IMG/VR virus record: IMGVR_UViG_3300028392_000034
Coordinates: 1 to 64,000 of that record
Strand: one strand, 5' to 3'
Source: a virus
Length of the DNA: 64,000 nt
Position numbers and translations under genes: made by a program. Each line of letters starts with the position of its first letter. Position 1 is the stretch's first letter. This document shows, piece by piece, positions 3,324-39,803 of the stretch. Under the pieces are notes generated by a model that ran no database searches, was not told the DNA's origin, and worked only from the letters and a program-made list of their open reading frames with translations.

Positions 3324-4148
3324 ATGAAAAAAATCTTAACAAGTTTAATAATTGCGCTAATTGCATCATCAGCATTGGCCTGGACACAACGTGCCCCTGG
3401 CACCCTAGCACAATGTCAAGTGCATACACCATACGGTGTTCCACAAGTGCAAGGTGCTGTGCAACCAATTTGCCGTGAAGCTTATCTATCAGCCTATGAT
3501 TCTCAGGCCAAAGTTCCACGTTTTGTTATGTGGACCTTGACCCCTGGACACGCATTGGGTTGCGTAGCACGGTCAAATGCATTTGCCGCTGACCAAAGCA
3601 TCCAGGGTGGTGCAGTACCAGGTGACTACGCAGGCACAGGCTACGACAAAGGACACATGGCTCCAGACGGAGACCAAAGTTGGGATCAACAGGTTGAGTA
3701 TGAAAGTTTCTTGATGACCAACATGAGCCCACAGGCCGGCAGTTTAAATCGTGGTATTTGGAAACTGTTAGAAACATCAGTGCGTGGTTGGGCAGCTCAA
3801 ACTGGACACACATTCAACATAGTCAGTGGTGGATTATACACAGCACAAGACAAAAAGATTGGTGCTGGCGTAGTTGTTCCACATGCTTTCTACAAGATTG
3901 TCATAGACGAAAACACAGGACAATATGCAGGTTGGTTGTTTCCACACGTAGCACCATATCCTAATCTAGGCAATGACTTGACTAAATTCCGCGTACCAGT
4001 GGCACAGATTGAACAACAAGCAGGTGTTAATTATGCATTTCCTAAAGGCGCAGTAGAGCTACAACCTGGACAAGAATGGCCAGTGGACTTTGGCGCATTG
4101 ACTAATGCAAAACGCAAGTTGTGTGGCGCCAACGCCGACATCGATTAA
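3324..4148 (+). CDS. Secreted DNA/RNA non-specific endonuclease (NucA/EndoG family)
   Basis: A 274-residue protein with a clear signal peptide (MKKILTSLIIALIASSALA, cleavage before W20). The nuclease core has DKGHMAPDGD, the DRGH-type motif with Lys for Arg that carries the catalytic His, and the metal-site segment MTNMSPQAGSLNRGIW with the conserved Asn residues. Family members cleave DNA and RNA without sequence preference using one divalent metal ion. Export implies action in the periplasm or outside the cell, where it could destroy competing DNA or scavenge nucleotides; this is inference. It lies between the internal-head candidates and a radical SAM gene, with no strong Shine-Dalgarno. 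Confidence 0.9.
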   Translation: MKKILTSLIIALIASSALAWTQRAPGTLAQCQVHTPYGVPQVQGAVQPICREAYLSAYDSQAKVPRFVMWTLTPGHALGCVARSNAFAADQSIQGGAVPGDYAGTGYDKGHMAPDGDQSWDQQVEYESFLMTNMSPQAGSLNRGIWKLLETSVRGWAAQTGHTFNIVSGGLYTAQDKKIGAGVVVPHAFYKIVIDENTGQYAGWLFPHVAPYPNLGNDLTKFRVPVAQIEQQAGVNYAFPKGAVELQPGQEWPVDFGALTNAKRKLCGANADID

Positions 4149-4186
4149 AAGTTTGTTCCAGCAGTCAATCTGCTCATAATTACAGT

Positions 4187-5308
4187 ATGAGCAATTTCTT
4201 GTGTGCAGCTCCGTGGAGGGGTCTGCACATCAATCCACAAGGCAGTGTCAAAACCTGTTGTGCAGGTGATCCTAATATGTTGGGCAACTTAAACAGCCAA
4301 ACTATTGAGGAGATTCTACACGGCTCTGCACTGCAAGAAGTAAGACAAACCCTGCGTGAGGGACGCCCACATGAGCAGTATTGTCACAATTGTGTGCAGG
4401 CCGAACGCTATGGTCGTAGTGAACGTGACTGGCACAACAGAATAAATCCCGGCTTTGATGCTGGCCAAGCCTCAGATACAGAACACCATCCAGTGCTGAT
4501 TGACATACGCTGGAACACCACTTGCAATTTCAGTTGCAACTACTGCAACGAACACAGTAGTAGTCAATGGGCCAGTCTAAAACAATTGTCAGTTCAGTCC
4601 GGCACCAGACCCTATTCTGACCAAGTATGCAACTATCTCGAACAACATCAAGCACACATTAAGAAAGTGGCTCTAATTGGTGGTGAGCCGTTGTTGCTCA
4701 AAGAAAATGAACGACTACTAGATGCAATTCCTTTGGATTGTCAAGTTGACGTTATAACCAATCTTGGTGTAGACTTAGAAAGCAATCGGATATTTGCTAA
4801 GTTAGCACAACGACAACAGGTTGGGTGGAACATAAGCATTGACAATACGGGTGATAGATTTGAATATGTCAGGTATGGTGGTACATGGAGTCAAATTGAA
4901 CAAAATATCAAAATAATACAGGCCTGCTCAGGGCATAGATTAGGCATACATCCGCTTTACAACATTTACAATGCCACTAGACTATCTGAATTGATTTCTT
5001 GGGCACATGATCAAACAATACCCGTGCATTGGCAAAGCCTATATCATCCTGCTTGTTTAGATCCGCTACAACTGGGACCTGAGTTTAGGCAGTTGGCCTT
5101 AAAAGAATTACGAACAGTATTAAGTAGACCCGATTTGGATCACGGTCAACGCAACTTCCTACAAGAAACCGAAGCTCGACATCAGCTGGCCAACAACAAT
5201 ATGTTACCAGAATTTATAAATCACATTGCCGAAATTGAAAGTAAATATCATGCTGGTGCTGCAGGTCGCTTTGAACAACTGTGGCCTGAACTAGCAACTT
5301 TATTATGA
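4187..5308 (+). CDS. Radical SAM protein with N-terminal auxiliary cysteine cluster (copy 1 of 5)
   Basis: A 373-residue protein if the ATG at 4187 is used; an in-frame ATG at 4121 lies inside the nuclease gene and is unlikely. The radical SAM CxxxCxxC motif is C113-C117-C120 (CNFSCNYC), followed by a GGEP SAM-binding motif at 165-168. The N-terminus carries further Cys residues (FLCAAPW, KTCCAGD, YCHNC) arranged like a twitch/SPASM-type auxiliary Fe-S site placed before the core. The layout matches the protein at 13121-14275. Substrate unknown. Its stop overlaps the terminase start (ATGA). Confidence 0.9.
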   Translation: MSNFLCAAPWRGLHINPQGSVKTCCAGDPNMLGNLNSQTIEEILHGSALQEVRQTLREGRPHEQYCHNCVQAERYGRSERDWHNRINPGFDAGQASDTEHHPVLIDIRWNTTCNFSCNYCNEHSSSQWASLKQLSVQSGTRPYSDQVCNYLEQHQAHIKKVALIGGEPLLLKENERLLDAIPLDCQVDVITNLGVDLESNRIFAKLAQRQQVGWNISIDNTGDRFEYVRYGGTWSQIEQNIKIIQACSGHRLGIHPLYNIYNATRLSELISWAHDQTIPVHWQSLYHPACLDPLQLGPEFRQLALKELRTVLSRPDLDHGQRNFLQETEARHQLANNNMLPEFINHIAEIESKYHAGAAGRFEQLWPELATLL

Positions 5309-6880: not shown

Positions 6881-9800
6881 ATGGCAGATATTACACCCGC
6901 TCGAAAATTATTTGATCTACTGGTCAGTAGAGATTTTGACCCAGAAATGCTGGACAGTTCTGGTAAACCAGCCGCTGACCCTGCAGAAACTGAAATATAC
7001 AGTTTTGACTTCCGTGCCCAAAGCGGCAAAGACTATGGCACAGTGGTAATCATGCTGGGCGACGACAATGATCTTGAAGTTTATTGCTCGGACAATGTGG
7101 GCCGCAGCATGGAAGGTGACGACAAAAACGACTGGTTTGCTTTCTTGGAACAGTTGAAAAACTTTGCCGTTAGAAACTTCATGACGTTTGGCATCAAAAA
7201 CTTGAATCGTTTACGTTACAGTATGCAAGGGCAAGCTGCCATCAAAGAAGGCCTGTTTGAAAGTTGGACTGGAAATCGAACCACCAGCTGGAATGGTGCG
7301 CCAACTGAAGCTCGCTTGATGATCCGCCACAAAAAGAACATTGCCGAAGGTGATGCTCGTTTCCGCTACATCGAAAGTTTGTTTATTGAAACAGCTGATA
7401 GCGAGCGTTACAAGTTGCCATTTACCAGTTTAACTGCTGGCCGTGCCATGTTGGAGCATGTGCGCCAAGGCGGACGTCCTTACGATGCCAGAGGTAATCA
7501 CATCAGTGAAATAGTTACAGAACTGGCGGTGCTAAGTCGTTTCCGCCGAGCCAATCAAGGACAAATCTTTGAAGGTGATACACAGCAACTGGTAGAACAA
7601 GTTAAAGAATACCAATCAAACTTGCAACGCAGCCTTAAAGGGCTTGGTACTCGCACTGGATACACCACATATTTTGAATCATGGAGCCCGGCTGAAATTT
7701 CAGAACAGGATGTAGTGATTGAAAGTTTAAAGAATCTTTTTGTCAAGCAGAGCATTGACACAAGAATTGAGTCAGCACTACCGCTGCTGGCCAAAATACA
7801 ACAACAAGGAACTGAAATGAAAGAAGCCAACATATTTGAAGCCTGGGTCGAACGACTTGCAGAAGGAACTTGGGCGTTGCCAGATACTCCAGAAAAACAA
7901 GACCAATTGATTGAACTGTTGAGTACGGACTTGCCAGTGGGCGCTGATGCTACCAATGCCACAGAACAACTGTATGACCTTGTTGGCGATGACGAGTTAT
8001 TTGACCAGTTGGGCGAACTGGCTGACCGCGATGCCAATGCAGATGCACGTCAAGTTATCATGGATCGACTGCAAGAACTCAGTGACTTTCCTGAAGTTCG
8101 TGCGGTATTGGATCAATTGCAAATTGATGCTACTGCTGAAATGAATCCACCCGAAGCCACTAATCCGGCTGATCTTGAACAAACAGACGAAGCCATGTTT
8201 CCAGGTAGTGCCATTGGTGACAAGTTGCGAGACTTTAAGCGAAAACAAGGGCAATCTGGTTCTGCAAAATTTGCAATGGGAATGATGCCAGCAGCAGGTG
8301 CTGGTGCAATGGCTGGATCTACAATGGCAACTACTGCTGTAGGAGCATCTGCTTTGTTTGCACCAGCATTAGGCGCAGGTGCTTTAGGTGGTGCCGCTGC
8401 CGCATTAGGCGGATTCTTAACATACAAGGGTCTAAATTGGTTGGCACAAAAATTGTTTGGAACCAAAGAAGAAGCATTGGCATTTGCTGATGCACATTTA
8501 AAAGCCGCAGGATCGGGACAACCACAATTTGAATTCCAAGGTAAAACATATCCAGTCAAGATCAATAGTCCACAAGAAGCACAGCAACTATTACGCAAGA
8601 TTCGTGTTTTACAAAGTCAAATTGACGAAAGTGATTTGAATAGTTTACGTCGTACCGCCGGCTTGACTGAAAACGTTCTTACCGACAGCACCGGCAGCAC
8701 ATTCCAACACATACTTGACACATTCAAACGTGATGTTCGAGACTTCAAAGAAACTGGCGAAGTCAGTGACGAACTGCACAATGCCCTGTATGACTACTAC
8801 TTTGATGACATGCCATATGGCACAAAGAAAGCTCGTGACGGTGATCCGTACGAATGGGTAGCAGATCGTTTTGGTGCAGACTTGGGCATCGACGGCTATG
8901 GCGGAAACAGCCCTGGCATTCCAGATTCTGATTACGGAATGGAACGTGAAAGCGTAGGCGACTATGCTGACGAGTATCAAGACTCGCTGTCGGGCATACT
9001 GAAAATTGCTGGTGTTCCTGCTAAACCACGTCCTGCACCCGAATACGATCATGCCGACATGGAAGAAGGCCTAATAGGTACCGCACTAGGTGGCATTGGT
9101 GGAGCATTGGTAGGAGGTCCAGCCGGAGCAAGAATTGGTGCATCACTTGGCAACGCAATTGGCAATGCAATGGGTAGTGATGACAAAACTACCGATGAAG
9201 CTGTTATGGTCAACCCAGGCACTACTATCATGAACCCTGATACTGAAAAAATGGCCAACCCTGAATTAGAAAAACACAATACTTGGCAGAAACAAGATGC
9301 AGAAGCAGATAAAATAAAATGGGGCGGCGGCGGCGTTCCTGCCAAAACATCAGCACCTCAAAAATCTGGCCTGGCCGCTAAATCTGGTGATGTCATTGAT
9401 GTTGATGCCAAAGAAGTAGAAGAGGGCGATATTCCATCTGAATTTGTTAGCGGAGCACGTGGACAACCGACCCCACTTGATGTAATAAATTATAAAGATT
9501 ACACGTCTGACATGAAAAGTAATTTTGGTCAAGACTGGAAACCTGATCCAAAACCAACAGGACCGTACGATACGGCTAAACTTGGATCGCCTCGATATTC
9601 TCAACCACCAGCAGAAGAGTCTATTGATCCTACCAATCCTAGAGATTATGAAATTCCAGCCATCCAGCGCAAAGGTCAAGAGCCATTGACTGCCAAAGAC
9701 ATTGAGCAAAAGGATCGTAAAGCTGAATTTGATTACTATCAACGTGCTCACGGCCGTCCACACCCAGACTCGGCCACAGAAGAAAGTCGTTCGCCCTTGG

Positions 9801-10058: not shown

Positions 10059-11063
10059 ATGGCATCATTAGCAGACATCCGTGCGAGACTCGCACAATCA
10101 GAAGGTAACAAACAAGGCGGCAACTCCACCGGTGGCGATAATGCAATTTATCCACACTGGAACATGGAAGAAGGCGCAAGCGCAACACTCCGATTCCTCC
10201 CAGACGGCAACACCAAGAACACATTCTTTTGGCAAGAACGAGCAATGATTCGTTTGCCATTCAATGGCGTCAAAGGTGAAATGGAATCCAAACAAGTATA
10301 TGTGCAAGTCCCTTGCGTGGAAATGTGGCAAGAAACTTGTCCTGTGCTGACAGAAGTTCGCACTTGGTTCAAGGACAAGAGCCTTGAAGAAATGGGTCGT
10401 AAGTATTGGAAAAAACGCAGTTACATTTTCCAAGGCTTTGTTCGTGAGAATCCACTAGGCGACGACAAGACTCCAGAAAATCCAATCCGTAGATTCATTA
10501 TTGGTCCACAAATCTTTACCACTATCAAGGGTGCATTGATGGATCCTGAGTTGGAAGAATTGCCAACAGACTACCTGCGTGGATTAGACTTCCGCATCAG
10601 CAAAGGTAGCAAAGGCGGCTTTGCTGACTACAACGGATCAAAGTGGGCTCGCAAAGAGACAGCACTCACTGAAGCCGAACAAGCAGCCATTGAAAAGCAT
10701 GGCCTGTTTGACTTGAGCACATTTATGCCCAAGAAGCCCGGTGAAGTTGAACTCAAGGTAATCAAAGAAATGTTTGAAGCAAGTGTTGATGGACAGAGTT
10801 ACGACACAGAACGTTGGGGTCAGTATTTCCGTCCAGCTGGTGTTAATGCTCCAGCAGGCAGTGCTACACCAGCGCCAGCAACAGCCGTTGTTGATGGACA
10901 CGGTGATGTTCACGAAGTTGAAGCCAAGTCAGCACCCGCAACAGCGGCATCAAGTGATTTTGATGATGAGCCAGCAGTGGCCAGTGCTCCAGTAGTGGCC
11001 AAGCCATCTTCAGACAAAGCTCAAGACATCTTGGCAATGATTAGGGCCCGTCAAAAAGCGTAA
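10059..11063 (+). CDS. 32: Single-stranded DNA-binding protein (T4 gp32-like)
   Basis: A 334-residue protein (T4 gp32 has 301). The core has hallmark segments of marine T4-like gp32: PHWNMEEGASATLRFLPDG, WQERAMIRLPFNG, a Cys pair near residues 87-95 in the zinc-site region, and FIIGPQIF. It ends with an Ala/Pro-rich linker, an acidic DFDDE patch and a terminal helix (DKAQDILAMIRARQ) likely to contact partner proteins. It coats ssDNA in replication, recombination and repair. An unusual repeat-bearing leader precedes it and a sulfotransferase-like gene follows four bases later. Confidence 0.92.
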   Translation: MASLADIRARLAQSEGNKQGGNSTGGDNAIYPHWNMEEGASATLRFLPDGNTKNTFFWQERAMIRLPFNGVKGEMESKQVYVQVPCVEMWQETCPVLTEVRTWFKDKSLEEMGRKYWKKRSYIFQGFVRENPLGDDKTPENPIRRFIIGPQIFTTIKGALMDPELEELPTDYLRGLDFRISKGSKGGFADYNGSKWARKETALTEAEQAAIEKHGLFDLSTFMPKKPGEVELKVIKEMFEASVDGQSYDTERWGQYFRPAGVNAPAGSATPAPATAVVDGHGDVHEVEAKSAPATAASSDFDDEPAVASAPVVAKPSSDKAQDILAMIRARQKA

Positions 11064-11066
11064 CAA

Positions 11067-11726
11067 ATGCTATCGCATTTAGATCGCGTTTTGTTTCCAG
11101 ACCGCTGTGAGGTAATTGAAATCATACCCTCACAGCGGTATGTCTATGTTATTTTTAAAAATGGACATACTAGTTTCTTTACGCCACAAAAAAAGAACAA
11201 CTGGCCAATACGTATCAATCAACAGATTCGACGAATCAACACAATTGATGTAATCATACGAAATCCTCAAGATCGATTAATTTCAGGAATCAACACATTT
11301 ATACAACACACCGTGAGAGATAATCCTGCGCTTGATCCGGTTACAGTAGAATGGTTCGCATTGAATTACATATCGTTGAATCGCCATTATGCTTCACAGT
11401 TTGTGTGGTTATTAAATTTAGCAAGGTATTTGAATCCCAATACCACGTTGAACTTGTTGCCAATGGCGGCCATCGGAGAACTCACAGGAAGAGATTCAAA
11501 GCCCGAAGGTGTGCTTCCGGCTAACACAGAACTAATAAAACGAATCTCATCAGTGAAAAACAACAACATGTATCAGCGTATCGATGCAGTGATATTTGAT
11601 TGTATTGGACAGTCGTTGACTTGGCAACAGTTATTACAACGGATAAAAACCGCTGATCCTACAGCATACGAGTATGTGATTGAGTATGCACAACAGATTT
11701 TAAATCCAACCTATGTATTGTCCTAG
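11067..11726 (+). CDS. Sulfotransferase-family-like protein
   Basis: A 219-residue protein. The segment YVIFKNGHTSFF resembles the 5'-phosphosulfate loop (K-N-x-x-S/T-S) of sulfotransferases, VIIRNPQDRLISGIN resembles the 3'-phosphate-binding region (R-x-P-x-x-R-x-x-S), and NRHYASQFVWLL resembles the RHxxPQ segment of the family. The cofactor would be PAPS. It overlaps the next radical SAM gene by 14 bases and opens a four-gene cassette. The family call rests on motif resemblance; the acceptor substrate is unknown. Confidence 0.6.
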   Translation: MLSHLDRVLFPDRCEVIEIIPSQRYVYVIFKNGHTSFFTPQKKNNWPIRINQQIRRINTIDVIIRNPQDRLISGINTFIQHTVRDNPALDPVTVEWFALNYISLNRHYASQFVWLLNLARYLNPNTTLNLLPMAAIGELTGRDSKPEGVLPANTELIKRISSVKNNNMYQRIDAVIFDCIGQSLTWQQLLQRIKTADPTAYEYVIEYAQQILNPTYVLS

Positions 11727-12588
11727 ACTAGATCATTTTGTTCGTTTCAACAGCAACGGCACAGTTAGTCGCTGTGGACACATGGTCAACGCACCAGAAT
11801 TTGCCACGCTTGAAGCAATGGAATCCAGTGAGTGGCTGGTCAATACCAAACATTTGATGAGTAGTGGACAATGGCCTGACGAATGTATACGTTGTGAAGA
11901 AACTGAACCTGACAGCATACGAGCGTATGCAACAGAGTTAGACCATCAAACTGAACAGAAAGATTATTTACAAGTAGGTGGTGTGTTGGACAATCTGTGC
12001 AATGCCGCTTGCCAAACATGCAATCAAAATCTCAGCAGTAGAATCGGCAGCTTAGCCGGACCTGTATTTCCAATTATCAATAATACGGATCAATTCTGGC
12101 AATTGCCACAAGAACGAATTATGCATTTAGATATCAATGGCGGCGAGCCCAGTTATAGTAAAAACTATAAACGACTGTTGAAAAATTTGCCACCTAATTT
12201 AAAAACGCTCAGATTAAATACAAATTGTAGCACAGTATTAACTGAACTAGTTGATATAGCCCGCAGTGGCATCGAAGTTACAGTCACAGTAAGTTGTGAC
12301 GGCATCGGCACAGTGCATGACTTTGTGCGCTGGCCTATACCTTGGCAAGATTTTTATCGTAATTTAATGACCTATAAAACAATGCCAGTCACATTGAATT
12401 TGTGGACAACAGTCAGTGTGTTGAATGTAGATGACTTGCCCAACATTCAAAAATTTGCCTTAGAGCACAGCATTGATCACAGTTATGCTTACTTAAAAAC
12501 GCCCGTTGAGTTGAGTGTTGATAATACTGACATTCCTGCTAGAGATGCATATATAGCAAAACAAAAACAACTAAGAGGCATAGTATGA
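11713..12588 (+). CDS. Radical SAM protein (copy 2 of 5)
   Basis: A 291-residue protein, the shortest of the five. The CxxxCxxC motif is C96-C100-C103 (CNAACQTC) and GGEP is at 143-146. N-terminal cysteines C3, C21, C58 and C61 follow the auxiliary-site pattern seen in the copies at 4187 and 13121. It overlaps the sulfotransferase-like gene by 14 bases and the SDR gene by ATGA, so the cassette is probably translated as one unit. The reaction is unknown; family members use a 5'-deoxyadenosyl radical to modify peptides, sugars or other small molecules. Confidence 0.9.
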   Translation: MYCPRLDHFVRFNSNGTVSRCGHMVNAPEFATLEAMESSEWLVNTKHLMSSGQWPDECIRCEETEPDSIRAYATELDHQTEQKDYLQVGGVLDNLCNAACQTCNQNLSSRIGSLAGPVFPIINNTDQFWQLPQERIMHLDINGGEPSYSKNYKRLLKNLPPNLKTLRLNTNCSTVLTELVDIARSGIEVTVTVSCDGIGTVHDFVRWPIPWQDFYRNLMTYKTMPVTLNLWTTVSVLNVDDLPNIQKFALEHSIDHSYAYLKTPVELSVDNTDIPARDAYIAKQKQLRGIV

Positions 12589-13124
12589 AAATAGCAATCA
12601 CTGGTCACACCGCCGGCATAGGTCAAGCTCTTGCTGAAGAATATCAACTCATGGGTTATGAAATTGTAGGTCTTAGTCAACGTGACGGCAACAATATTCG
12701 CAACACCGTTAAGATTTGTGATCAAATTGAACCGTGTGATGTTTTTGTTAACAACGCACAAGCCGGATATGCACAGACCGAGTTGTTGTTTGAAATGGCA
12801 CAACGCTGGTCGGGCACCGGCAAACAGATTATTGTGATCAGCACAATGATGACTCAAGAACCTGTGTCGTCGTTGACTGGACTAGACATGGATCATTATC
12901 GTTTGCAAAAAGTTACATTAGAAGAAGCTGTGCGTCAAATACGACATCGTCGACTCAAAGTAAAGATCGTAGTAGTTCGTCCTGGTAACATTGCCACAAA
13001 CTTGGATAAAACAGTGCCACCTGCCGCCGATGTCGATAACTGGGCTAAAACCTTATTGGGTCTATTAGATATGGCCGCAAAAAACAATCTTAGAATTCCA
13101 GATATTTCTTTAGGACCGGTATGA
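12585..13124 (+). CDS. Short-chain dehydrogenase/reductase-like protein
   Basis: A 179-residue Rossmann-fold protein. The NAD(P)-binding TGxxxGIG is at residues 6-13, NNA at 56-58, and the catalytic Ser86, Tyr105 and Lys109 (YRLQK) fit the SDR triad. It is shorter than typical SDRs (about 250) and lacks part of the C-terminal substrate region, although the RPGNIATNL segment after the core is present. It is joined by ATGA overlaps to radical SAM genes on both sides, suggesting one pathway. Substrate unknown. Confidence 0.85.
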   Translation: MKIAITGHTAGIGQALAEEYQLMGYEIVGLSQRDGNNIRNTVKICDQIEPCDVFVNNAQAGYAQTELLFEMAQRWSGTGKQIIVISTMMTQEPVSSLTGLDMDHYRLQKVTLEEAVRQIRHRRLKVKIVVVRPGNIATNLDKTVPPAADVDNWAKTLLGLLDMAAKNNLRIPDISLGPV

Positions 13125-14275
13125 CCCCCAAAGATATATTAACCAACAAGAATTTTTGCCCAATGCCATGGACTGGGTTGATGTATAACGTTGATGGCAA
13201 AGTAAAAAATTGTATTCGCAGTGATTTTACAACCGGTGGTCTAGGCAATATCAAAGACAACACCATTGAAGAAATACTGTTAGGACCTGTCAATGTTACC
13301 AAACAAACTAATATAATCAATAACCAGCCGGCTGCTGGCTGTCATACTTGTTACGATTTAGAACATGGTAAAGAAGGTTTTGATATTATCAGTGATAGAA
13401 TTTTCTACATACGAGAATTCAAACAAACCCCATTGGATACTTATCGACCCAATAATTTTAATCTACAAACCATTGATGTTCGGTGGACCAATTTGTGTAA
13501 TCTTGCTTGTGTATATTGTGGCCCTGTGTTTAGTAGTCGTTGGGCAGACGAATTGGGTAAAAAAATATCACAACCAACCGAACAACAGCAACAGGATTTC
13601 AGAGACTACATTTATCAACACGCCAAGAATCTCAAACATGTATACCTAGCCGGTGGCGAACCCTTGTTGATGAAGGAAAATTTAAAACTACTTCGAGAAT
13701 TAAACCCAGACGTTAATCTTAGGATAAACACAAATCTTAGCAAGGTTGATACAGGAGTGTTTGATGCAGTATGCCAATTCAAAAATGTTCATTGGACAGT
13801 GAGTGCAGAAACCATAGAAGATGAATTTGAATACATACGATTCGGCGGTAAGTGGCAGGATTTTTTAGACAATCTAAACACAATTAGAAAACTTGACCAT
13901 AAGATAAGTTTCAACATGCTATGGTTTCTTTTAAATTATGACTCGGTATTTGGATATGTAGACTACCTTAAAGGTCTAGGATTCCATAATAATAGTTTTG
14001 TCATTGGTGCGTTACTCACTCCTGATTACCTAAATATTAGACATTTACCAGAAAATGTGTTAAACTCGTTAAAGTTAAAATTACAATCAAAGATCAACGA
14101 AAATCCAGGGTACCTACTTGAAGATAGTTATCGGAATATGTTGCATTACATTGAGCAACCAATTGAGAAGAATTTAACAAATTCATTTGAACAATTGGCA
14201 ACAATGGATCAACGGCGTGGAGTAGACAGCAGTAAAATTTTTACAGAATTATACAAACTTAAAGAAGGAAAGTAA
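13121..14275 (+). CDS. Radical SAM protein with N-terminal auxiliary cysteine cluster (copy 3 of 5)
   Basis: A 384-residue protein. The CxxxCxxC motif is C126-C130-C133 (CNLACVYC), with a GGEP motif near 178-181. Auxiliary cysteines C13, C31, C74 and C77 precede the core. The N-terminal block (FCPMPWTGL, then GNIKDNTIEEILLG) aligns with the 4187 protein (FLCAAPWRGL, then GNLNSQTIEEILHG), so these two are paralogues. It closes the cassette and is followed two bases later by uvsX. Substrate unknown. Confidence 0.9.
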   Translation: MTPKDILTNKNFCPMPWTGLMYNVDGKVKNCIRSDFTTGGLGNIKDNTIEEILLGPVNVTKQTNIINNQPAAGCHTCYDLEHGKEGFDIISDRIFYIREFKQTPLDTYRPNNFNLQTIDVRWTNLCNLACVYCGPVFSSRWADELGKKISQPTEQQQQDFRDYIYQHAKNLKHVYLAGGEPLLMKENLKLLRELNPDVNLRINTNLSKVDTGVFDAVCQFKNVHWTVSAETIEDEFEYIRFGGKWQDFLDNLNTIRKLDHKISFNMLWFLLNYDSVFGYVDYLKGLGFHNNSFVIGALLTPDYLNIRHLPENVLNSLKLKLQSKINENPGYLLEDSYRNMLHYIEQPIEKNLTNSFEQLATMDQRRGVDSSKIFTELYKLKEGK

Positions 14276-14277
14276 TC

Positions 14278-15336
14278 ATGGCAAAACCATTTGATATAAG
14301 CAAGTTCCGCAAGGACATCACCAAAAGCATTGAAGGCCTAAGTATTGGTTTCAATGATCCAACTGATTGGATCTCAACAGGCAATTTTGCCTTGAACTAT
14401 CTTATCAGTGGAGACTTTAATCGAGGTATTCCACTGGGCAAGATTACAGTATTTGCCGGTGAGTCTGGTGCAGGAAAAAGCTATATTTGTTCAGGCAACA
14501 TTGTTAAGAACGCACAAGAGCAAGGTATCTTTGTCATCTTGGTTGATACAGAAAACGCACTAGACGAAACATGGCTACATGCGCTTGGTGTAGATACCGG
14601 TGCAGACAAGTTACTTAAATTAAACATGAGTATGATTGATGACGTTGCCAAGGCTATTTCAACATTCATGATTGATTACAAAGCTCTACCAGATGGTGAG
14701 CGCATGAAGGTATTATGGGTTATCGACTCATTGGGCATGTTGTTGACTCCAACTGATGTGAATCAATTTGAAGCCGGTGACATGAAAGGTGATATGGGTC
14801 GTAAGCCCAAAGCACTAACAAGTCTTGTTCGTAATTCAGTCAACATGTTTGGTGGCTTCAATGTTGGAATGGTTTGTACGAATCACACCTACGCAAGCCA
14901 GGATATGTTTGACCCAGATGATAAGATTTCAGGTGGCCAAGGCTTTATCTATGCATCAAGTATTGTTGTTGCTATGAAGAAAATGAAACTCAAAGAAGAT
15001 GAAGAAGGTAACAAAATCTCTGAAGTAATGGGTATCCGTGCTGGATGTAAGGTAATGAAAACTCGTTATGCTAAACCATTTGAAGGTATGCAGGTTAAGA
15101 TTCCGTATGAAACAGGCATGAACCCTTATAGTGGATTGACTGATCTAGCAGAGAAAAAAGGTATACTTAAGAAAGATGGCAATCGTTTGATGTTTGTTAC
15201 CAGCGAAGGTGAGATAATTAAACAGTTCCGTAAGGCTTGGGAATCCAACGAAGATGGTTGCTTGGACAAAGTAATGACAGATTTTAAAAATCAGAAAGAA
15301 ACAGTAACCACTGAAGAAACCGCAACGGAGGAATAA
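14278..15336 (+). CDS. uvsX: UvsX, RecA-like recombinase
   Basis: A 352-residue recombinase. Walker A is GESGAGKS at residues 61-68, followed by VILVDTENALDE. The Walker B-type strand is VLWVIDSLG, and FGGFNVGMVCTNHTY and SGGQGFIYASSIVV fit the RecA/UvsX core. It forms filaments on ssDNA for strand exchange and recombination-dependent replication. A GGAAAG Shine-Dalgarno precedes the ATG. It is followed by an acidic protein and UvsY, a grouping consistent with a recombination operon. Confidence 0.95.
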   Translation: MAKPFDISKFRKDITKSIEGLSIGFNDPTDWISTGNFALNYLISGDFNRGIPLGKITVFAGESGAGKSYICSGNIVKNAQEQGIFVILVDTENALDETWLHALGVDTGADKLLKLNMSMIDDVAKAISTFMIDYKALPDGERMKVLWVIDSLGMLLTPTDVNQFEAGDMKGDMGRKPKALTSLVRNSVNMFGGFNVGMVCTNHTYASQDMFDPDDKISGGQGFIYASSIVVAMKKMKLKEDEEGNKISEVMGIRAGCKVMKTRYAKPFEGMQVKIPYETGMNPYSGLTDLAEKKGILKKDGNRLMFVTSEGEIIKQFRKAWESNEDGCLDKVMTDFKNQKETVTTEETATEE

Positions 15337-15596: not shown

Positions 15597-16048
15597 TGTG
15601 GTATAGCAAAGTTGTAGCGGATCTAGGTAATATTCCAGATTTTATCACACATTACGAACACGAACTTGACGAAGCCAAACGCGACTGTCGAGTTGGTGGA
15701 CTTGTTGAAAAAAATATTACAGCTTTGCCAGGCCTTACAGAACATAGGTTTAACCAGTTGCAAGAAGTTGAAGCAGTGTTAAATTACCTCAATATACAAC
15801 TACGCAAAATACGACGCAAGCACTTTCAAAAATATCTTGAAGGGTACGCTCGAGCATTGACAAGTCGTGATGCTGAAAAGTATGTTGATGGCGAAGACGA
15901 AGTCATTGAATTTGAAACCTTAATCAACGAAGTTGCACTGTTACGTAATCGATACTTGGGCATTCTTAAAGGAATGGAAAGTAAGAACTTTATGCTGGGA
16001 CACATTGTGAGATTACGAGCCGCCGGTATGGAGGATGTTCAAGTATAA
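15596..16048 (+). CDS. uvsY: UvsY-like recombination mediator
   Basis: A 150-residue protein, close to T4 UvsY (137). The C-terminal half (YVDGEDEVIEFETLINEV, then LRNRYLGILKGMESKNFML) fits the UvsY pattern of a Tyr-x-Asp-Gly segment followed by helices ending in a short basic tail. UvsY loads UvsX onto gp32-coated ssDNA. The call rests on that pattern plus location two genes after uvsX, with TAATG overlaps on both sides. Confidence 0.72.
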   Translation: MWYSKVVADLGNIPDFITHYEHELDEAKRDCRVGGLVEKNITALPGLTEHRFNQLQEVEAVLNYLNIQLRKIRRKHFQKYLEGYARALTSRDAEKYVDGEDEVIEFETLINEVALLRNRYLGILKGMESKNFMLGHIVRLRAAGMEDVQV

Positions 16049-16794
16049 TGTTTGCACATCCTGGCGACAGCCATCAACACAGTCTTGAAACACTACGTCA
16101 GTTGTATGAGTATGATGATTTCATGCTGAGTATACGCAACATGATTGATCTTGGATGTGGCTCTGGTGACGATTTGGTATGGTGGGCGACCCGAACAACT
16201 CGCGACGATCCCCAGCCGCTGAACATCAAATGTCACGGCATTGATCTAGGTGGAAACTCATTGGTTGTTAACGAACATGAAAATATTACCTATCAACAGT
16301 GTAATTTTGAAGATACATTAACTGTTCCAGATGGTGGATTTGATATACTATGGTGCCACGATGCATTTCAGTATGCTGTTAACCCAATACAAACTCTCAG
16401 CAATTGGTGGCATATTGCCAGCCCAGGCGGTATGCTGTCACTGACTGTACCAGTGACTCAACAAATACATCGTCGACAACTTAGTTATGTGTTGCCCAAT
16501 GGACATTACTATCATTACACCATGGTCAGTCTCATGTATATGTTGGCCACAGCCGGATGGGATTGTGGTGCTGGGTTTTTTAAACAAACACTCACTGAGC
16601 CGTGGATACATGCGGTGGTTTATAAAAGTGCTCAACCTCCTCAAAACCCACGTGATATCAATTGGAACACATTGGTAGAGCTTAATCTTTTACCCCAGTC
16701 TGCTGTAAAAAGCATTTATGCTCACAGTGCTTTAAGACAACAAGATTTAGTTATTCCTTGGATTGACGGCAGTTTATTGAGCATGGCCGTTTAA
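16048..16794 (+). CDS. Class I SAM-dependent methyltransferase
   Basis: A 248-residue protein. The SAM-binding motif I is IDLGCGSGDD near residues 32-41, and the motif IV/V region is FDILWCHDAFQYAVNP followed by SPGGMLSLTVP, typical of the Methyltransf_11/25 group that acts on small molecules. The start overlaps the uvsY stop (TAATG). The next gene is a cytidylyltransferase-cupin fusion, so a sugar or small-molecule substrate is more likely than DNA, but this is inference. Confidence 0.85.
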   Translation: MFAHPGDSHQHSLETLRQLYEYDDFMLSIRNMIDLGCGSGDDLVWWATRTTRDDPQPLNIKCHGIDLGGNSLVVNEHENITYQQCNFEDTLTVPDGGFDILWCHDAFQYAVNPIQTLSNWWHIASPGGMLSLTVPVTQQIHRRQLSYVLPNGHYYHYTMVSLMYMLATAGWDCGAGFFKQTLTEPWIHAVVYKSAQPPQNPRDINWNTLVELNLLPQSAVKSIYAHSALRQQDLVIPWIDGSLLSMAV

Positions 16795-16799
16795 CGGGC

Positions 16800-16807
16800 T
16801 ATAAATA
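16800..16807 (+). promoter_or_regulatory. Late promoter (TATAAATA, exact T4 consensus)
   Basis: Exact TATAAATA five bases before the ATG at 16813, which places the expected +1 at the start codon itself. Confidence 0.75.
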
Positions 16808-16812
16808 TTTGC

Positions 16813-17574
16813 ATGAAAAAAATAGTAATAGTAAGCGGCGGATTTGATCCGGTACATTCGGGACACATTAAACTGATAAAGGAAGCCCGTTTATTGGGTG
16901 ATATGTTGATCGTAGGAATCAACAGTGACGAGTGGCTGACTCGCAAAAAAGGTCGCGCCTTTATGCCGTGGAACGAAAGACTGTGCGTATTAAACAACTT
17001 ATCTTCAGTAGATGAAGTATATACTTTTGACGACGAAGACGGAACTGCTTGTCATTTGCTACGTCAAGTTCGAGCACATTATCCTGATGATAAAATTATT
17101 TTTGCAAACGGTGGTGATCGCACACACTCAAATATTCCAGAAATGGACGCCGATGATGATAATTTAGCATTTGCATTTGGTGTTGGCGGAGTTGACAAAG
17201 CAAATAGTAGTAGTTGGATTTTGGAAGAATGGAAAGCACCTAAGGCACTACGCCCATGGGGCTATTACCGGGTATTACATGATGTACCTGGTACCAAAGT
17301 CAAAGAACTTACTGTTATGCCTGGCCAGCGTCTTAGTATGCAACGCCACCAAGATCGAGCCGAACATTGGCATGTTTCTGAAGGTACAGCCACAGTTTAC
17401 AGCATAAATAGAAAAAGCGATCCAGAGTTGGTGGGTATCTTTGAAATACACAAACATATACATATCAATTGTAACGAATGGCATCAGTTGTGCAATGAAA
17501 CTGACGCTCCGTTAAAAATTGTAGAAATACAATACGGTGACAATTGCGTTGAAGAAGATATCGAACGCCGATAA
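16813..17574 (+). CDS. Cytidylyltransferase-like domain fused to mannose-6-phosphate isomerase type II cupin
   Basis: A 253-residue two-domain protein. Residues 1-130 form an RfaE2/TagD-type nucleotidyltransferase: GGFDPVHSGH carries the HxGH-type site. Residues 145-253 are a PMI type II cupin: PWGYYRVL, VKELTVMPGQRLSMQRHQDRAEHW with metal-binding His residues, and a C-terminal QYG-x-EEDIERR signature. The N-domain would activate a phosphorylated sugar or alcohol with CTP, and the cupin would isomerise a sugar. Both point to glycan or nucleotide-sugar metabolism. Transcribed from an exact late promoter, probably leaderless. Confidence 0.88.
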   Translation: MKKIVIVSGGFDPVHSGHIKLIKEARLLGDMLIVGINSDEWLTRKKGRAFMPWNERLCVLNNLSSVDEVYTFDDEDGTACHLLRQVRAHYPDDKIIFANGGDRTHSNIPEMDADDDNLAFAFGVGGVDKANSSSWILEEWKAPKALRPWGYYRVLHDVPGTKVKELTVMPGQRLSMQRHQDRAEHWHVSEGTATVYSINRKSDPELVGIFEIHKHIHINCNEWHQLCNETDAPLKIVEIQYGDNCVEEDIERR

Positions 17575-28357: not shown

Positions 28358-29777
28358 CGTCCAACGCTTATTCTTAGAAATGATGTTGCAGGACGCAGAA
28401 AGTTATGTTCGCGTTCAAAACATTTACAACCCAGAAAACTTTGACCGCAGTCTCAGGCCAGCAGCTGAGTTTATTGCCAAACACAGTGACCAACACAAGA
28501 CACTGCCCACAACGGAACAGATCAGTGCCAGCACCGGCGTTAAACTTAACAACATTCCTGATTTAAATGAAGGACATTTTGAATGGTTCATGGATGAGTT
28601 TGAAGGCTTTACTCGCAGACAAGAATTGGAACGAGCAATTTTAAAGAGTGCAGATTTGTTGGAAAAGGGCGAGTATGACCCTGTAGAGAAATTAATCAAA
28701 GATGCGGTACAGATATCACTTACTAAAGACATGGGCACGGATTACTTCAGTGATCCTAGTGCTCGTATTAACCGATACTTCAACTCAGGCGGGCAAGTAA
28801 GCACTGGCTGGCCACAGATGGACAAAATCTTGTATGGTGGATTTAGTCGCGGAGAACTAAATATTTTTGCTGGTGGATCTGGATCTGGTAAAAGTTTGGT
28901 CATGATGAACATAGCCCTGAGTTGGTTACAAGCCGGACTCAGTGGTGTGTATATCAGTTTAGAACTGAGCGAAGAATTGTGTGCATTAAGAACTGATGCC
29001 ATGCTGGCTGGAATGAGCACAAAAGAAATTCGCAAAGATATTGACCAGGCAACTCTTAAAGTCAAATTGATTTCAAAGAAAACCGGTCAATATCGTATTA
29101 AGGCATTGCCAGCACAAAGCAACATCAATGACATTCGTAGTTACATCAAAGAAGTTCAAGTGCAAACAGGAATCAAGATTGACTTTGTCATGTGTGATTA
29201 CTTGGACTTGTTAATGCCAGTCAGTGCCAAGGTCAGTCCAAACGATTTGTTTGTCAAAGACAAGTATGTTTCAGAAGAATTGCGTAACTTGGCCAAAGAA
29301 CTCAATGTGTTGTTTGTAACAGCATCGCAGTTGAATCGTAGTGCAGTGGAAGAGATTGAATTTGACCACAGTCACATTTCGGGTGGTATTTCAAAGATCA
29401 ATACTGCAGATAACGTGTTTGGTATCTTTACAAGTCGTGCTATGCGTGAACGTGGCAAGTATCAAATACAATGTATGAAATCGCGTAGTAGTACCGGTGT
29501 TGGTATGAAAATTGACTTGGATTATAACATTGAAACTATGCGTATCACTGATCCGGGCGAAGATGCAGGACCGGTTAATTCGTTTGCTAAAGGTAATCTA
29601 TTAGATAGTATCAAAGCCAAGAGCCAAGTCAAGTCTGCTGACTCCGGTAACGAAAGCACATCACCAAAGTGGGAACGTCCCACAGGAACTCCAGCTTGGG
29701 AACAAGAACCCAAGATAACTGCTGATGTGCAAAGTGCCAAACTAAAACAATTACTAGGACAGATTAAACAGTCATGA
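28335..29777 (+). CDS. 41: Replicative DNA helicase (T4 gp41-like, DnaB family)
   Basis: A 480-residue helicase starting with TTG and overlapping the primase gene. An N-terminal helical domain is followed by the RecA-like motor: Walker A FAGGSGSGKS near residues 176-185, DYLDLLMP as Walker B, and a TASQLNRSAV segment typical of DnaB. T4 gp41 is similar in length (475). It unwinds the fork 5' to 3' on the lagging strand. Its stop overlaps the next radical SAM gene (ATGA). Confidence 0.95.
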   Translation: MLKDYGLDVQRLFLEMMLQDAESYVRVQNIYNPENFDRSLRPAAEFIAKHSDQHKTLPTTEQISASTGVKLNNIPDLNEGHFEWFMDEFEGFTRRQELERAILKSADLLEKGEYDPVEKLIKDAVQISLTKDMGTDYFSDPSARINRYFNSGGQVSTGWPQMDKILYGGFSRGELNIFAGGSGSGKSLVMMNIALSWLQAGLSGVYISLELSEELCALRTDAMLAGMSTKEIRKDIDQATLKVKLISKKTGQYRIKALPAQSNINDIRSYIKEVQVQTGIKIDFVMCDYLDLLMPVSAKVSPNDLFVKDKYVSEELRNLAKELNVLFVTASQLNRSAVEEIEFDHSHISGGISKINTADNVFGIFTSRAMRERGKYQIQCMKSRSSTGVGMKIDLDYNIETMRITDPGEDAGPVNSFAKGNLLDSIKAKSQVKSADSGNESTSPKWERPTGTPAWEQEPKITADVQSAKLKQLLGQIKQS

Positions 29778-30778
29778 TAGCCTATCAAGATATACAAGAT
29801 GTTCATCTTGAAATTTCTAGTTTATGTAATGCTAGTTGCCCGTTGTGTCCTAGGACGTTTTGGGGATATTCGTTCAACGCTGGATACCCAGAAACTAACT
29901 TAACATTAACACACGCTAAACAAATCTTTACTGAAGATTTTTTAACACAGTTGACCAGTATTCGAATCAATGGTAATTTTGGGGATATTGTAATGAATCC
30001 CGAAGGACCTGATATTGTTGAATATTTTATTAGTATTAATCCCAATTTAAAAATTACTATCAGCACCAATGGCGGAGCAAGAGATCAAACGTTCTGGACC
30101 AGGCTGGCAAAAAGCAGAGTCACAGTTTATTTTTGTTTAGACGGATTAGAAGATACCCATCACCTGTATAGGCAAAATACAGTATGGGCCACAGTTATAC
30201 GTAATGCACAAACATTTATAGCCGCCGGTGGTGATGCCATTTGGAAAATGATACCATTTGATCATAATCGTCACCAAATTGAGCAGTGCCGCGCACTTAG
30301 TAAAGAGCTTGGCTTTACACAATTTTTACTATCACCTGATAGTGGGCGTGACACCGGCCCGGTTTTTAATAATCACGGTGAACTCACACATGTAATAGGC
30401 AATTATACCGGAGAGAAAGATTTTGAAATATTATACCACGAGAAAAAAGCATATAAAATTCTACTAGAAGATATTCTTCCTGGGCGTATTCCTGCAAAAT
30501 CTTTAAATTGTGAGACTAAAAGACTAAAGAGTATCTACATTGCTGCTAACGGAGATGTAAGTCCTTGTTGTTATCTTGGGTTTTATCCAAAAACATATGG
30601 CGCTCATCGGTTTCATGAAGCCGCTAATGCTCAATTAATTCCATTGATTGCAAAAAATAATGCGTTAGAATACCCATTAGAAGAATGTATTGAGTGGTTT
30701 AAATCTGTCAAAAACGCCTGGGAAATTGATAATTATGAACAAGGGCGATTAGTAATTTGCGATGAGTCATGTGGATAA
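29774..30778 (+). CDS. Radical SAM protein with C-terminal SPASM-like region (copy 4 of 5)
   Basis: A 334-residue protein. The CxxxCxxC motif is C18-C22-C25 (CNASCPLC), at the very N-terminus. The C-terminal cysteines (NCETKRLKSIYIAANGDVSPCC split by 16 residues, CIEW, ICDESCG) form a SPASM/twitch-type auxiliary site. The order therefore differs from the copies at 4187, 11713 and 13121, which carry theirs first. SPASM proteins commonly modify peptides. It is joined by ATGA overlap to the helicase gene. Substrate unknown. Confidence 0.9.
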   Translation: MIAYQDIQDVHLEISSLCNASCPLCPRTFWGYSFNAGYPETNLTLTHAKQIFTEDFLTQLTSIRINGNFGDIVMNPEGPDIVEYFISINPNLKITISTNGGARDQTFWTRLAKSRVTVYFCLDGLEDTHHLYRQNTVWATVIRNAQTFIAAGGDAIWKMIPFDHNRHQIEQCRALSKELGFTQFLLSPDSGRDTGPVFNNHGELTHVIGNYTGEKDFEILYHEKKAYKILLEDILPGRIPAKSLNCETKRLKSIYIAANGDVSPCCYLGFYPKTYGAHRFHEAANAQLIPLIAKNNALEYPLEECIEWFKSVKNAWEIDNYEQGRLVICDESCG

Positions 30779-38109: not shown

Positions 38110-38132
38110 CATCATCTGATTATTAGATGATG
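38110..38132 (+). promoter_or_regulatory. Hairpin covering the first two ATGs of a radical SAM gene
   Basis: CATCATCT (38110-38117) pairs perfectly with AGATGATG (38125-38132) around a 7-base loop. The 3' arm contains the ATGs at 38127 and 38130, leaving the ATG at 38142 free. It could control initiation. No T run follows, so it is not a terminator. Confidence 0.55.
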
Positions 38133-39044
38133 CACTATACTATGAAAAAACACTTATTCTCCAAACTCGAGTTCTATATAACCAACGTTTGTAATTTGAC
38201 CTGCGAAGGTTGTAATCGATTCAACAACTACTCATTTGCTGGTTGGCAACGATGGAGTGACTACGAAGCCGACTATGCCAAATGGGCCGAACATGTAGAT
38301 GTTGATCGGATTGTAATACTAGGTGGAGAACCCCTGCTTAATCCAGATATACTTGATTGGGTATATGGAATCAATCGTATCTTTAAGAGAAATGTGCAGA
38401 TTTTGTCAAACGGCACACGTCTAAACAATGTAAAAGGACTTTACGAAGCACTACAGGCCAATGGCAACTGGATGGGTATCAGCTGGCACAATCCCAACAC
38501 CATTGATGAGTTTGAAACAGAGGTTTACAAGTTCCTTAAAGGTAATATTACAAAAATAGAAAAAAATGATCCTCGCAACGAATATGGTGCCGACGTAGCA
38601 TGGGTAGATGAAAATAAAGTTGTTATTCCTTTGTGGATACAATATGATTTTTATGACAGTGCAATTGGTCGTGATGCTACTGGTCGATTTACACTACACA
38701 ATAGTAGACCCGAAGTAGCACACAACAGTTGTGGATTTAGGCGCCATAAAAATTATCATATGATCAAAGGTAAACTGTATAAATGTGGCCCAGCTGCATT
38801 ATTTCCAGAGTTTGATCAACAACACGGATTTGATATTTCGGACGCGGATCGAGCCGTATTAAATTCTTACCGGCCATTATCTCCTTATGAGTATGCAGAA
38901 CGCGGACAAGAGTTTTTGGACACGATTGATGAGCAATTGACCATGTGTAAATTCTGCCCAGAAAGTCTGGACTATAAAAATAGATTATTTGCAGTTACCA
39001 AAAATCAAGCTCGAAAACAATACACCCTAGAACCAGTCGTATAA
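38127..39044 (+). CDS. Radical SAM protein (copy 5 of 5), beside IscU/IscA
   Basis: A 305-residue protein; the start may be 38127 or the in-frame ATG 38142. The CxxxCxxC motif is C22-C26-C29 (CNLTCEGC) counted from 38127, and GGEP is at about 66-69. C-terminal cysteines (NSCGFRRH, KCGPAA, CKFCPE) form a SPASM-like auxiliary site. It directly precedes the Fe-S assembly genes iscU and iscA, 62 bases upstream. A late promoter and a start-covering hairpin precede it. Substrate unknown. Confidence 0.9.
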   Translation: MMHYTMKKHLFSKLEFYITNVCNLTCEGCNRFNNYSFAGWQRWSDYEADYAKWAEHVDVDRIVILGGEPLLNPDILDWVYGINRIFKRNVQILSNGTRLNNVKGLYEALQANGNWMGISWHNPNTIDEFETEVYKFLKGNITKIEKNDPRNEYGADVAWVDENKVVIPLWIQYDFYDSAIGRDATGRFTLHNSRPEVAHNSCGFRRHKNYHMIKGKLYKCGPAALFPEFDQQHGFDISDADRAVLNSYRPLSPYEYAERGQEFLDTIDEQLTMCKFCPESLDYKNRLFAVTKNQARKQYTLEPVV

Positions 39045-39105: not shown

Positions 39106-39483
39106 ATGGCATATTCAGAAAAAGTAATTGATCACTACGAAAATCCACGTAATGTAGGGTCGTTTGACAAAAGTGACGACTCGATTGGAACCGGTATGGT
39201 TGGAGCTCCTGCATGTGGCGACGTCATGAAACTTCAAATCAAAGTAAATACTGAAGGAGTAATAACTGATGCCAAATTTAAAACGTACGGGTGCGGATCA
39301 GCAATCGCCAGCTCAAGTCTTGTCACCGAGTGGGTTAAAGGAAAAACGCTTGACCAAGCAGGAACGATTAAAAATTCGGATATTGCTGGAGAACTTGCCT
39401 TACCACCGGTTAAAATACATTGTAGCATACTTGCAGAAGATGCTATAAAAGCCGCAATCGAAGACTACCGTAAAAAACACTGA
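39106..39483 (+). CDS. iscU: IscU-type Fe-S cluster scaffold
   Basis: A 125-residue protein, full length for the IscU/NifU-N family. The three ligand cysteines are C37 (ACGD), C63 (GCGSA) and C106 (HCS), with Asp39 next to the first. The HscA-recognition motif LPPVK is intact at 99-103. It builds [2Fe-2S] clusters from cysteine-desulfurase sulfur and passes them on with HscA/HscB. No desulfurase gene was seen, so host IscS would be required. Its stop overlaps the iscA start. Confidence 0.93.
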   Translation: MAYSEKVIDHYENPRNVGSFDKSDDSIGTGMVGAPACGDVMKLQIKVNTEGVITDAKFKTYGCGSAIASSSLVTEWVKGKTLDQAGTIKNSDIAGELALPPVKIHCSILAEDAIKAAIEDYRKKH

Positions 39484-39803
39484 TGATTTCAGTTACTGAC
39501 GTCGCCTCTAAAAAAATTGTATCTAACTTGACTCGACGTGGCCAAGGGGTAGGTATTCGACTTGGTGTTCGTACCACTGGTTGCTCAGGGCTTGCTTATG
39601 TATTAGAATATGTTGATACCATTAATGCAGAAGACATTGCAGTTGAACAAGATGGCTTTGTTGTAGTGATTGATCCTAAGAGTTCAGCATACTTAAATGG
39701 AGTCGAAGTAGACTATGTGCGCCAGGGTCTTAACGAAGGCTTTGAATTTAACAATCCTCTTGAACGAGACCGTTGTGGATGTGGAGAAAGTTTTAGGATT
39801 TGA
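39483..39803 (+). CDS. iscA: IscA/A-type Fe-S carrier
   Basis: A 106-residue protein. The ligand cysteines are C34, C98 and C100 (CGCGESF), with a GCSG motif at 33-36. A-type carriers receive clusters from IscU and deliver [4Fe-4S] clusters to targets such as radical SAM enzymes. It shares a one-base overlap (TGATG) with iscU and a TTGA overlap with the dCMP deaminase, forming a three-gene operon. Confidence 0.93.
   Translation: MISVTDVASKKIVSNLTRRGQGVGIRLGVRTTGCSGLAYVLEYVDTINAEDIAVEQDGFVVVIDPKSSAYLNGVEVDYVRQGLNEGFEFNNPLERDRCGCGESFRI

Follow-up and report, generated by a model that had tools for sequence, protein, structure and literature searches.

A four-gene cassette in the gp32-uvsX junction of a T4-like phage: swappable cargo with a predicted minimal sulfotransferase paired to a radical SAM protein

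Introduction

Sulfotransferases and radical S-adenosylmethionine (SAM) enzymes are often listed among the auxiliary genes of phages without a role being assigned to them. What, then, is the purpose of a gene group which combines a sulfotransferase-like protein (O1), two radical SAM proteins (O2 and O4) and a short-chain dehydrogenase/reductase (SDR; O3) and which is inserted between the single-strand DNA binding protein gene gp32 and the recombinase gene uvsX? This arrangement is found on a stretch of 64,000 nucleotides (the window) which forms part of the 148,970-base virus record IMGVR_UViG_3300028392_000034. A sequence-only reading of the window had described O1 to O4 as four overlapping frames behaving as one unit and had suspected a small biosynthetic pathway. 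The analysis reported here reveals that the cassette is swappable metabolic cargo in the gp32-uvsX slot of a T4-like phage and that its four genes travel as a block.

Results

Presence and absence of the cassette across relatives

Related junctions were picked by UvsX similarity alone, the 80 loci chosen being the best of at least 600. Both gp32 and uvsX are visible in 62 of these loci; in the other 18, gp32 is missing from the contig. Twelve of the 62 two-flank junctions contain O1-O2-O3-O4 in this order, two contain O1-O2 only, 31 harbour other genes and 17 are empty, the gap between gp32 and uvsX then measuring 60 to 77 nucleotides. Clearly, the cassette comes and goes as a block among these loci, as the earlier notion of one unit had implied, and a variable block at a conserved site is what is expected of cargo. 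A further 72 two-flank loci all contain the four genes in order, a second O3-like gene being present in five; this sample is biased to presence, having been fetched via O1 or O2, and includes some contigs that were fetched twice. When the 62 loci are placed on a uvsX tree, the presence of the cassette requires 11 changes, ten of which are forced by well supported branches, and it is as scattered as shuffled labels. Since uvsX itself may recombine, these changes measure exchange at the locus.

The other inserts encode 54 proteins, ten of which were searched for known families. Four of these scored over cut-off, namely a formyltransferase, an AMP-binding enzyme, a hexapeptide transferase and an Asp/Asn hydroxylase; for the other six no match exceeded the cut-off. 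The commonest alternative cargo is a 14-member family of about 260 to 320 residues (fetched loci L102, L111, L122, L128, L151 and others), the one scanned member of which has no Pfam match over cut-off.

Within the window, the four open reading frames (ORFs) all start with ATG and overlap by 14, 4 and 4 nucleotides, exactly as they had been described before (Table 1). They fill the junction so tightly that merely three spare nucleotides are left between gp32 and O1 and two between O4 and uvsX. The assignment of the flanking genes to gp32-like and UvsX-like families of PHROG corroborates the placement of the cassette among core recombination genes. The nearest cultured relatives of the gp32 protein are found in Pseudomonas PA5oct-type phages (49.9% identity over the whole protein) and that of UvsX in Sinorhizobium phage Phosso (65.8%), all of these being large myoviruses. 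In 86 fetched four-gene loci, some of which again are two fetches of one contig, the O1/O2 overlap amounts to 14 nucleotides in 59 cases, 19 in three and 20 in 24, and overlaps of 4 nucleotides prevail both for O2/O3 (80 of 86) and for O3/O4 (74 of 86). Purifying selection acts on all four genes, as the median ratios of non-synonymous to synonymous substitution rates (dN/dS) are 0.151, 0.075, 0.078 and 0.071 for O1, O2, O3 and O4, calculated from 66, 284, 307 and 459 close pairs, respectively.

Table 1. Features of the gp32-uvsX region; positions refer to the window.
Feature	Position	Strand	Basis or remark
gp32-like single-strand DNA binding protein	10059..11063	+	PHROG 1192, E 5.7e-66; gene before cassette
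O1, minimal sulfotransferase-fold protein (predicted), 219 residues	11067..11726	+	predicted model, motifs, HHalign to bacterial PF03567
12-bp hairpin within the O1 frame	stem 11101-11112 / 11128-11139, loop 15	+	counterpart of the post-gp32 hairpin of empty-site relatives
O2, N-twitch radical SAM protein, 291 residues	11713..12588	+	NF033640 126 bits, Cys conservation, model
O3, short SDR oxidoreductase, 179 residues	12585..13124	+	adh_short 27.2 bits, Epimerase 25.6 bits, motifs
O4, N-twitch radical SAM protein, 384 residues	13121..14275	+	NF033640 250 bits, seven Cys
UvsX recombinase	14278..15336	+	PHROG 97 (UvsX-like recombinase), E 1.1e-65; gene after cassette

O1 and O2 as an obligate pair

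Profile searches of all fetched loci place O1 directly upstream of O2 in 85 of 87 distinct O2 genes, the remaining two being situated at contig ends, and O2 downstream of O1 in 86 of 86 O1 genes. O1 and O2 thus form an obligate overlapping pair, inseparable in every complete case fetched. Distant relatives found via locus L189 retain this overlapping pair away from gp32. Their gene order is SDR-O1-O2 in L189 and L190 and SDR-O4-O1-O2 in L192, and in L191, L193 and L194 the pair occurs without O3. As these relatives show permuted or missing partners, gene order shifts while O1-O2 stays. The pair does not need O3 and O4, both of which are absent beside it in L116, L176, L191, L193 and L194; these two partners may change place or be lacking altogether. 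Regarding the linkage of the cassette genes, the sequence-only reading holds for O1-O2, which are never separated in the fetched loci, and in part for O3 and O4. In L189 to L192, an ORF of about 228 to 239 residues faces O2 and overlaps its 3' end on the opposite strand (about 9005-9720, minus strand).

O1 varies far more than its partners. Among 63 distinct four-gene sets its median pairwise identity is 0.397, compared to 0.735, 0.725 and 0.680 for O2, O3 and O4. Among pairs whose O2 is more than 70% alike, O1 identity is two-peaked; at 50% distance O1 forms eight clusters, and its dN/dS is about twice that of O2 to O4. Such a pattern is what an exchange of specificity variants would look like; faster drift would fit as well.

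O1 resembles PAPS-dependent sulfotransferases

In direct family searches the O1 protein of the window matches no entry of Pfam, NCBIfam or PHROG, and the Pfam gathering score is not reached. Among 67 relatives, 14 match Sulfotransfer_2 (PF03567) at E up to 0.5, the best at 0.0015 with 19.1 bits against a cut-off of 22; two of ten scanned distant relatives also match, both under the cut-off. Because these searches gave nothing significant, we resorted to profile-profile comparison including shuffles. HHalign matches 73 O1 sequences to 19 bacterial PF03567 proteins with a probability of 83.7% and a score of 42.8. The controls remain far below this value, with a maximum of 21.0 for 60 column shuffles, 14.5 for the reversed profile and 13.6 to 17.5 for three decoys from the cassette. 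The alignment covers both phosphate-binding motifs, and IFKNGHTS (residues 29-36), RNPQDRLISG (65-74) and LNRHYASQ (104-111) of O1 are in register with the matching stretches of the PF03567 proteins. We take IFKNGHTS to be the 5'-phosphate loop (5'-PSB-like) and RNPQDRLISG the 3'-phosphate loop (3'-PB-like) of enzymes using 3'-phosphoadenosine 5'-phosphosulfate (PAPS).

The AlphaFold2 model of O1 has a predicted local distance difference test score (pLDDT) of 90.4 and a predicted template modelling score of 0.88. When it is subjected to a VIA structure comparison, the 37 top-ranked rows are all PAPS sulfotransferases, headed by heparan sulfate 3-OST-5. Arg65, Arg70, Gly74, His107 and Gln111 are invariant in 67 aligned rows as well as in 16 rows down to 25% identity. 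The name sulfotransferase-like given to O1 beforehand thus stands, albeit at the level of fold and profile only, and we rate it quite likely that O1 binds PAPS or 3'-phosphoadenosine 5'-phosphate (PAP).

O2, O3, O4 and the Fe-S carriers

The names given to the remaining three proteins apply as well. NCBIfam family NF033640 (twitch domain-containing radical SAM) combines an N-terminal four-Cys twitch with a radical SAM core. O4 shares this organisation, scoring 250.1 bits and hence over the curated cut-off of 170, and additionally matches PF04055 over cut-off (56 bits); the shorter O2 stays under the NF033640 cut-off with 126.1 bits. The CX3CX2C motif is formed by Cys96/Cys100/Cys103 in O2, with Cys3, Cys21, Cys58 and Cys61 on its N-terminal side, and the equivalent residues in O4 are Cys126/Cys130/Cys133 plus Cys13, Cys31, Cys74 and Cys77. 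All seven cysteines of O4, three of the radical SAM and four of the N-twitch type, are present in 72 of 72 aligned rows. Those of O2 are found in 76 of 76 rows, except Cys3 and Cys21 (75 each), the CX3CX2C motif being complete in all 76. The model of O2 (pLDDT 88.9) matches radical SAM enzymes with E 6.4e-7 in Foldseek, which ranks SkfB and SuiB first, followed by MoaA, viperin and BlsE; SkfB is also its best solved sequence relative (E 1.7e-5). As to O3, the scores for adh_short and Epimerase both exceed the cut-off, and its motifs TGxxxGIG (74 of 74 rows), NNA (73 of 74) and YxxxK (74 of 74) are well conserved.

Two genes for A-type Fe-S carriers (PF01521, over cut-off) are encoded by the record, one at 39483-39803 of the window and the other at 111575-111877 of the record. 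Nine NF033640-like matches, three of them over cut-off, are found in the whole record. Besides O2 and O4, the window harbours three radical SAM genes at 4121-5308 (over the NF033640 cut-off), 29774-30778 and 38127-39044, the last of which is close to the first-mentioned carrier gene. In relatives, a second cargo slot beside an 85-residue gene preceding the uvsY-like gene is often occupied by another O4-like radical SAM gene (e.g. L018:5184-6362, L028:5582-6343 and L195:12025-13281).

A hairpin, probably of gp32, embedded in O1

A stem of 10 to 15 bp is predicted between gp32 and uvsX in each of the 17 empty junctions (junction energies of -16.8 to -25.4 kcal/mol), and a stem is likewise formed in all eight junctions of cultured large phages that were looked at (seven gp32-uvsX and one between gp32 and the next gene). 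Of 76 distinct cassette junctions, 71 leave at most 12 nucleotides between gp32 and O1, and from these short gaps the hairpin initially appeared to be lost. This idea was dropped in favour of an embedded hairpin: with loops of up to 14 nucleotides and within 80 nucleotides, a stem of at least 9 bp is present in 25 of the 76 junctions, and with loops of up to 22 nucleotides and within 90 nucleotides of the gp32 stop it is present in 73. Under the latter limit, widened after looking and applied equally to the controls including the codon redraw, such stems occur in 67 of 885 random stretches and in 16 of 304 stretches deeper in O1. The stem falls inside the first 90 nucleotides of 68 of 69 junction-adjacent O1 genes, as compared to 4.8 expected upon redrawing codons according to the codon usage of O1 itself with the protein sequence kept. 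Synonymous variation is 0.07 bits for the six stem codons versus 0.84 bits for 106 other conserved codons, and not one of 20,000 random codon sets is as low; the constraint is strongest at the stem, yet neighbouring 5' codons are low too. For the window stem (11101-11139), the stretch 11064-11150 folds with a z score of -4.86. A promoter and terminator scan with a loop limit of 8 did not list this stem, whose loop is 15 nucleotides long. The stem registers differ between O1 types. Within type A, L012 alone shows a double compensatory change; two more compensatory cases were read by eye (L035; L096 versus L069).

In five loci with a gap of 41 to 81 nucleotides between gp32 and O1, the stem (6 to 12 bp) is located in the gap and the start of O1 is devoid of a stem of 9 bp. 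No such stem was found in the six O1 genes which do not adjoin gp32 (L189 to L194). As the hairpin is present in empty junctions and in long gaps, and in O1 only where this gene adjoins gp32, the element appears to belong to gp32, with abutting cargo writing it into its own codons; the sequence-only reading had not noticed it. Other inserts contain a stem of at least 9 bp within their first 90 nucleotides in 21 of 31 cases.

Database distribution and neighbouring genes

A tblastn search of 50,697 cultured phage records yields no match for O1 (limit 1) nor for O2 or O3 (limit 0.001), and for O4 only radical SAM relatives at 21 to 33% identity. Searching cellular genome contigs with the single O2 sequence gives no relative; the O2 alignment retrieves a single one, L189 (NZJL01000003.1), which is filed under a metagenome-assembled genome (MAG) of the Porticoccaceae. 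By our own reading of its sequence, the L189 cassette adjoins a DnaB/gp41-like helicase ORF. We treat L189 as phage because this helicase-like ORF lies beside phage-type cassettes; its occurrence in the Porticoccaceae MAG is possibly a hint to the host or a binning error. In 398 genomes of the phylum of L189 the O1 profile finds one match, the L189 contig itself, and the O2 profile this contig plus one weakly matching genome. A cellular origin of O1 and O2 was rejected on these searches, in which the sole clear cellular-filed match looks like phage DNA.

Just past uvsX and the uvsY-like gene, positions 16048-17574 encode a methyltransferase followed by a fusion of a nucleotidyltransferase (RfaE domain II-like) with a mannose-6-phosphate isomerase cupin. 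A DNA/RNA non-specific endonuclease (PF01223, E 5.3e-42) is encoded at 3324-4148, the terminase following two genes downstream. Neither an Rfam family nor a tRNA turned up when the window was scanned.

Discussion

The explanation we favour, even though it is evenly poised between right and wrong, is that of a swappable tailoring cassette which is expressed with gp32 and which probably sulfates and redox-edits a small molecule or a surface sugar. Transcription would run through from gp32 into the cassette, and the hairpin would either set how much message passes beyond gp32 or shield the end of the gp32 message. O1 would transfer sulfate from host PAPS, O2 and O4, supplied by the phage-encoded A-type Fe-S carriers, would carry out a radical oxidation or isomerisation, and O3 would act on a carbinol or ketone in an NAD(P) step. 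A small molecule or sugar that has been sulfated and redox-edited may result, most likely a building block of a cell-surface glycan altering the surface of the infected cell. Acceptor specificity would be set by O1, which changes fastest and whose several discrete types occur alongside a conserved O2. The biosynthetic pathway with PAPS chemistry suspected before remains an inference. That the product is sulfated we rate slightly better than an even guess. The surface glycan as target is the weakest step of the mechanism and rather doubtful; it is suggested by the other cargo types, by the heptose-type nucleotidyltransferase/cupin gene nearby and by what the accessible part of a study on pelagimyophages reports (PMC7029224). 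Somewhat short of an even chance, we propose that exchangeable cassettes are built around a phage-only, obligate pair of a minimal sulfotransferase and an N-twitch radical SAM protein, O1 types being swapped to change the sulfated target, and that O1 doubles as the 3' hairpin of gp32, tying the cargo to the core genome.

Several observations weigh against this explanation. No substrate was found for the cassette, and direct signs of glycan chemistry near a relative are limited to one GT8 match in L189, which stays below the threshold. The O1 protein of the window lacks any family match, its VIA score versus 3-OST-5 is middling (Z 5.4, root mean square deviation 5.0 over 154 residues) and Foldseek attains an E of 0.05 at best. 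Lys31 is replaced by Arg in L194 and L152, and Ser73 by Thr, Ala or Gly in some rows. The nearest solved relatives of O2 include peptide maturases no less than enzymes acting on sugars or nucleotides, O3 and O4 may be missing beside the pair, and no U-run directly follows the window stem.

The solved relatives of O2 raise the question of whether the cassette modifies a host or virion protein or peptide instead, in the manner of SPASM/twitch maturation of ribosomally synthesised and post-translationally modified peptides, in which case O1 would sulfate its target or do no more than bind it. SkfB and SuiB lead the structural comparison, and the fast divergence of O1 would suit target recognition. 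However, BlsE, viperin and MoaA score nearly equally, and neither the cassette nor its junctions, which leave two to three nucleotides, contain a precursor peptide gene; we consider this alternative unlikely. O1 might also be a degenerate sulfotransferase fold serving O2 as a dedicated partner or regulatory subunit rather than transferring sulfate. Its obligate pairing, its small size (177 to 221 residues among the rows reaching down to 25% identity), the imperfect conservation of Lys31 and Ser73 and a dN/dS twice that of its partners are all in line with such a role, but the invariance of Arg65, Arg70, His107 and Gln111 down to 25% identity is expected of an active site in use and renders it improbable.

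The location between replication and recombination genes and the proximity of the O2 fold to viperin and MoaA would be compatible with a modification of nucleotides, DNA or tRNA, be they from the host or the phage, for counter-defence or takeover. Yet empty junctions are common, so that the DNA chemistry of the phage cannot depend on the cassette across the group, and the same slot houses unrelated metabolic cargo, for which reason we deem this function quite improbable. Finally, the cassette could be hitch-hiking DNA of little benefit, retained because O1 bears the gp32 hairpin. An embedded hairpin would penalise clean deletion, comparable to the embedded promoters in homing endonuclease genes of T4, for which, in the part of the source available, a role in keeping inserted genes is argued (PMC2988022). 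But 17 junctions are cleanly empty and nevertheless possess the hairpin, all four genes are under purifying selection and the catalytic residues are invariant, which makes mere hitch-hiking very improbable. The tailoring cassette remains our preferred explanation, and as its natural empty-site and other-cargo relatives constitute ready controls, its function is testable by comparing near-identical phages.

Compared with known systems, O1 resembles Pfam Sulfotransfer_2 (PF03567) and the heparan sulfate 3-OST and NDST structures in its predicted fold, in the 5'-PSB/3'-PB style motifs and in an H..PQ-like motif. It differs from these enzymes in its small size of about 180 to 220 residues, in the missing family match of the window protein, in its restriction to phages in the present searches and in its obligate pairing with a radical SAM gene. 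Phage sulfotransferases are already in print, their role being called unclear in the part of the report accessible (PMC10580990). As far as the available text of the respective study goes, pelagimyophages likewise are aquatic phages of the T4-like type, with radical SAM gene cassettes distinguishing their variable regions, and they carry lipopolysaccharide-type genes, also dispersed in clusters of two or three (PMC7029224). The cassettes described, however, are located in the host recognition region, the text available mentions no sulfotransferase pair, the string "sulfotransfer" is absent from the main text, and freshwater SAR11 phages are said there to be without radical SAM genes (PMC7029224). 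A T4-like environmental genome, so far as its description is accessible, combines an A-type Fe-S carrier with 12 radical SAM genes and in this respect resembles the present record with its two PF01521 genes and nine NF033640-like matches, but the word "sulfotransferase" is absent from the main text (PMC5332604).

As to the hairpin, the accessible part of a study on T4 describes mobE and segF as inserted genes whose 5' coding regions likewise contain a hairpin, in that case a terminator, and proposes an effect on the expression of neighbouring genes (PMC2988022). Here, in contrast, the inserted gene is metabolic rather than an endonuclease and the stem is not immediately followed by a U-run. 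The hairpin within O1 shows how cargo can be built into an essential transcription unit beyond homing endonucleases, and it offers a test of why T4-like phages gather cargo at the gp32-uvsX junction. Within a coverage that excludes most subscription literature, we found no paper in which a T4-like phage unites a sulfotransferase with radical SAM genes. While radical SAM cassettes and A-type carriers are already known from T4-like aquatic phages, the obligate O1-O2 pair and the embedded hairpin seem to be new.

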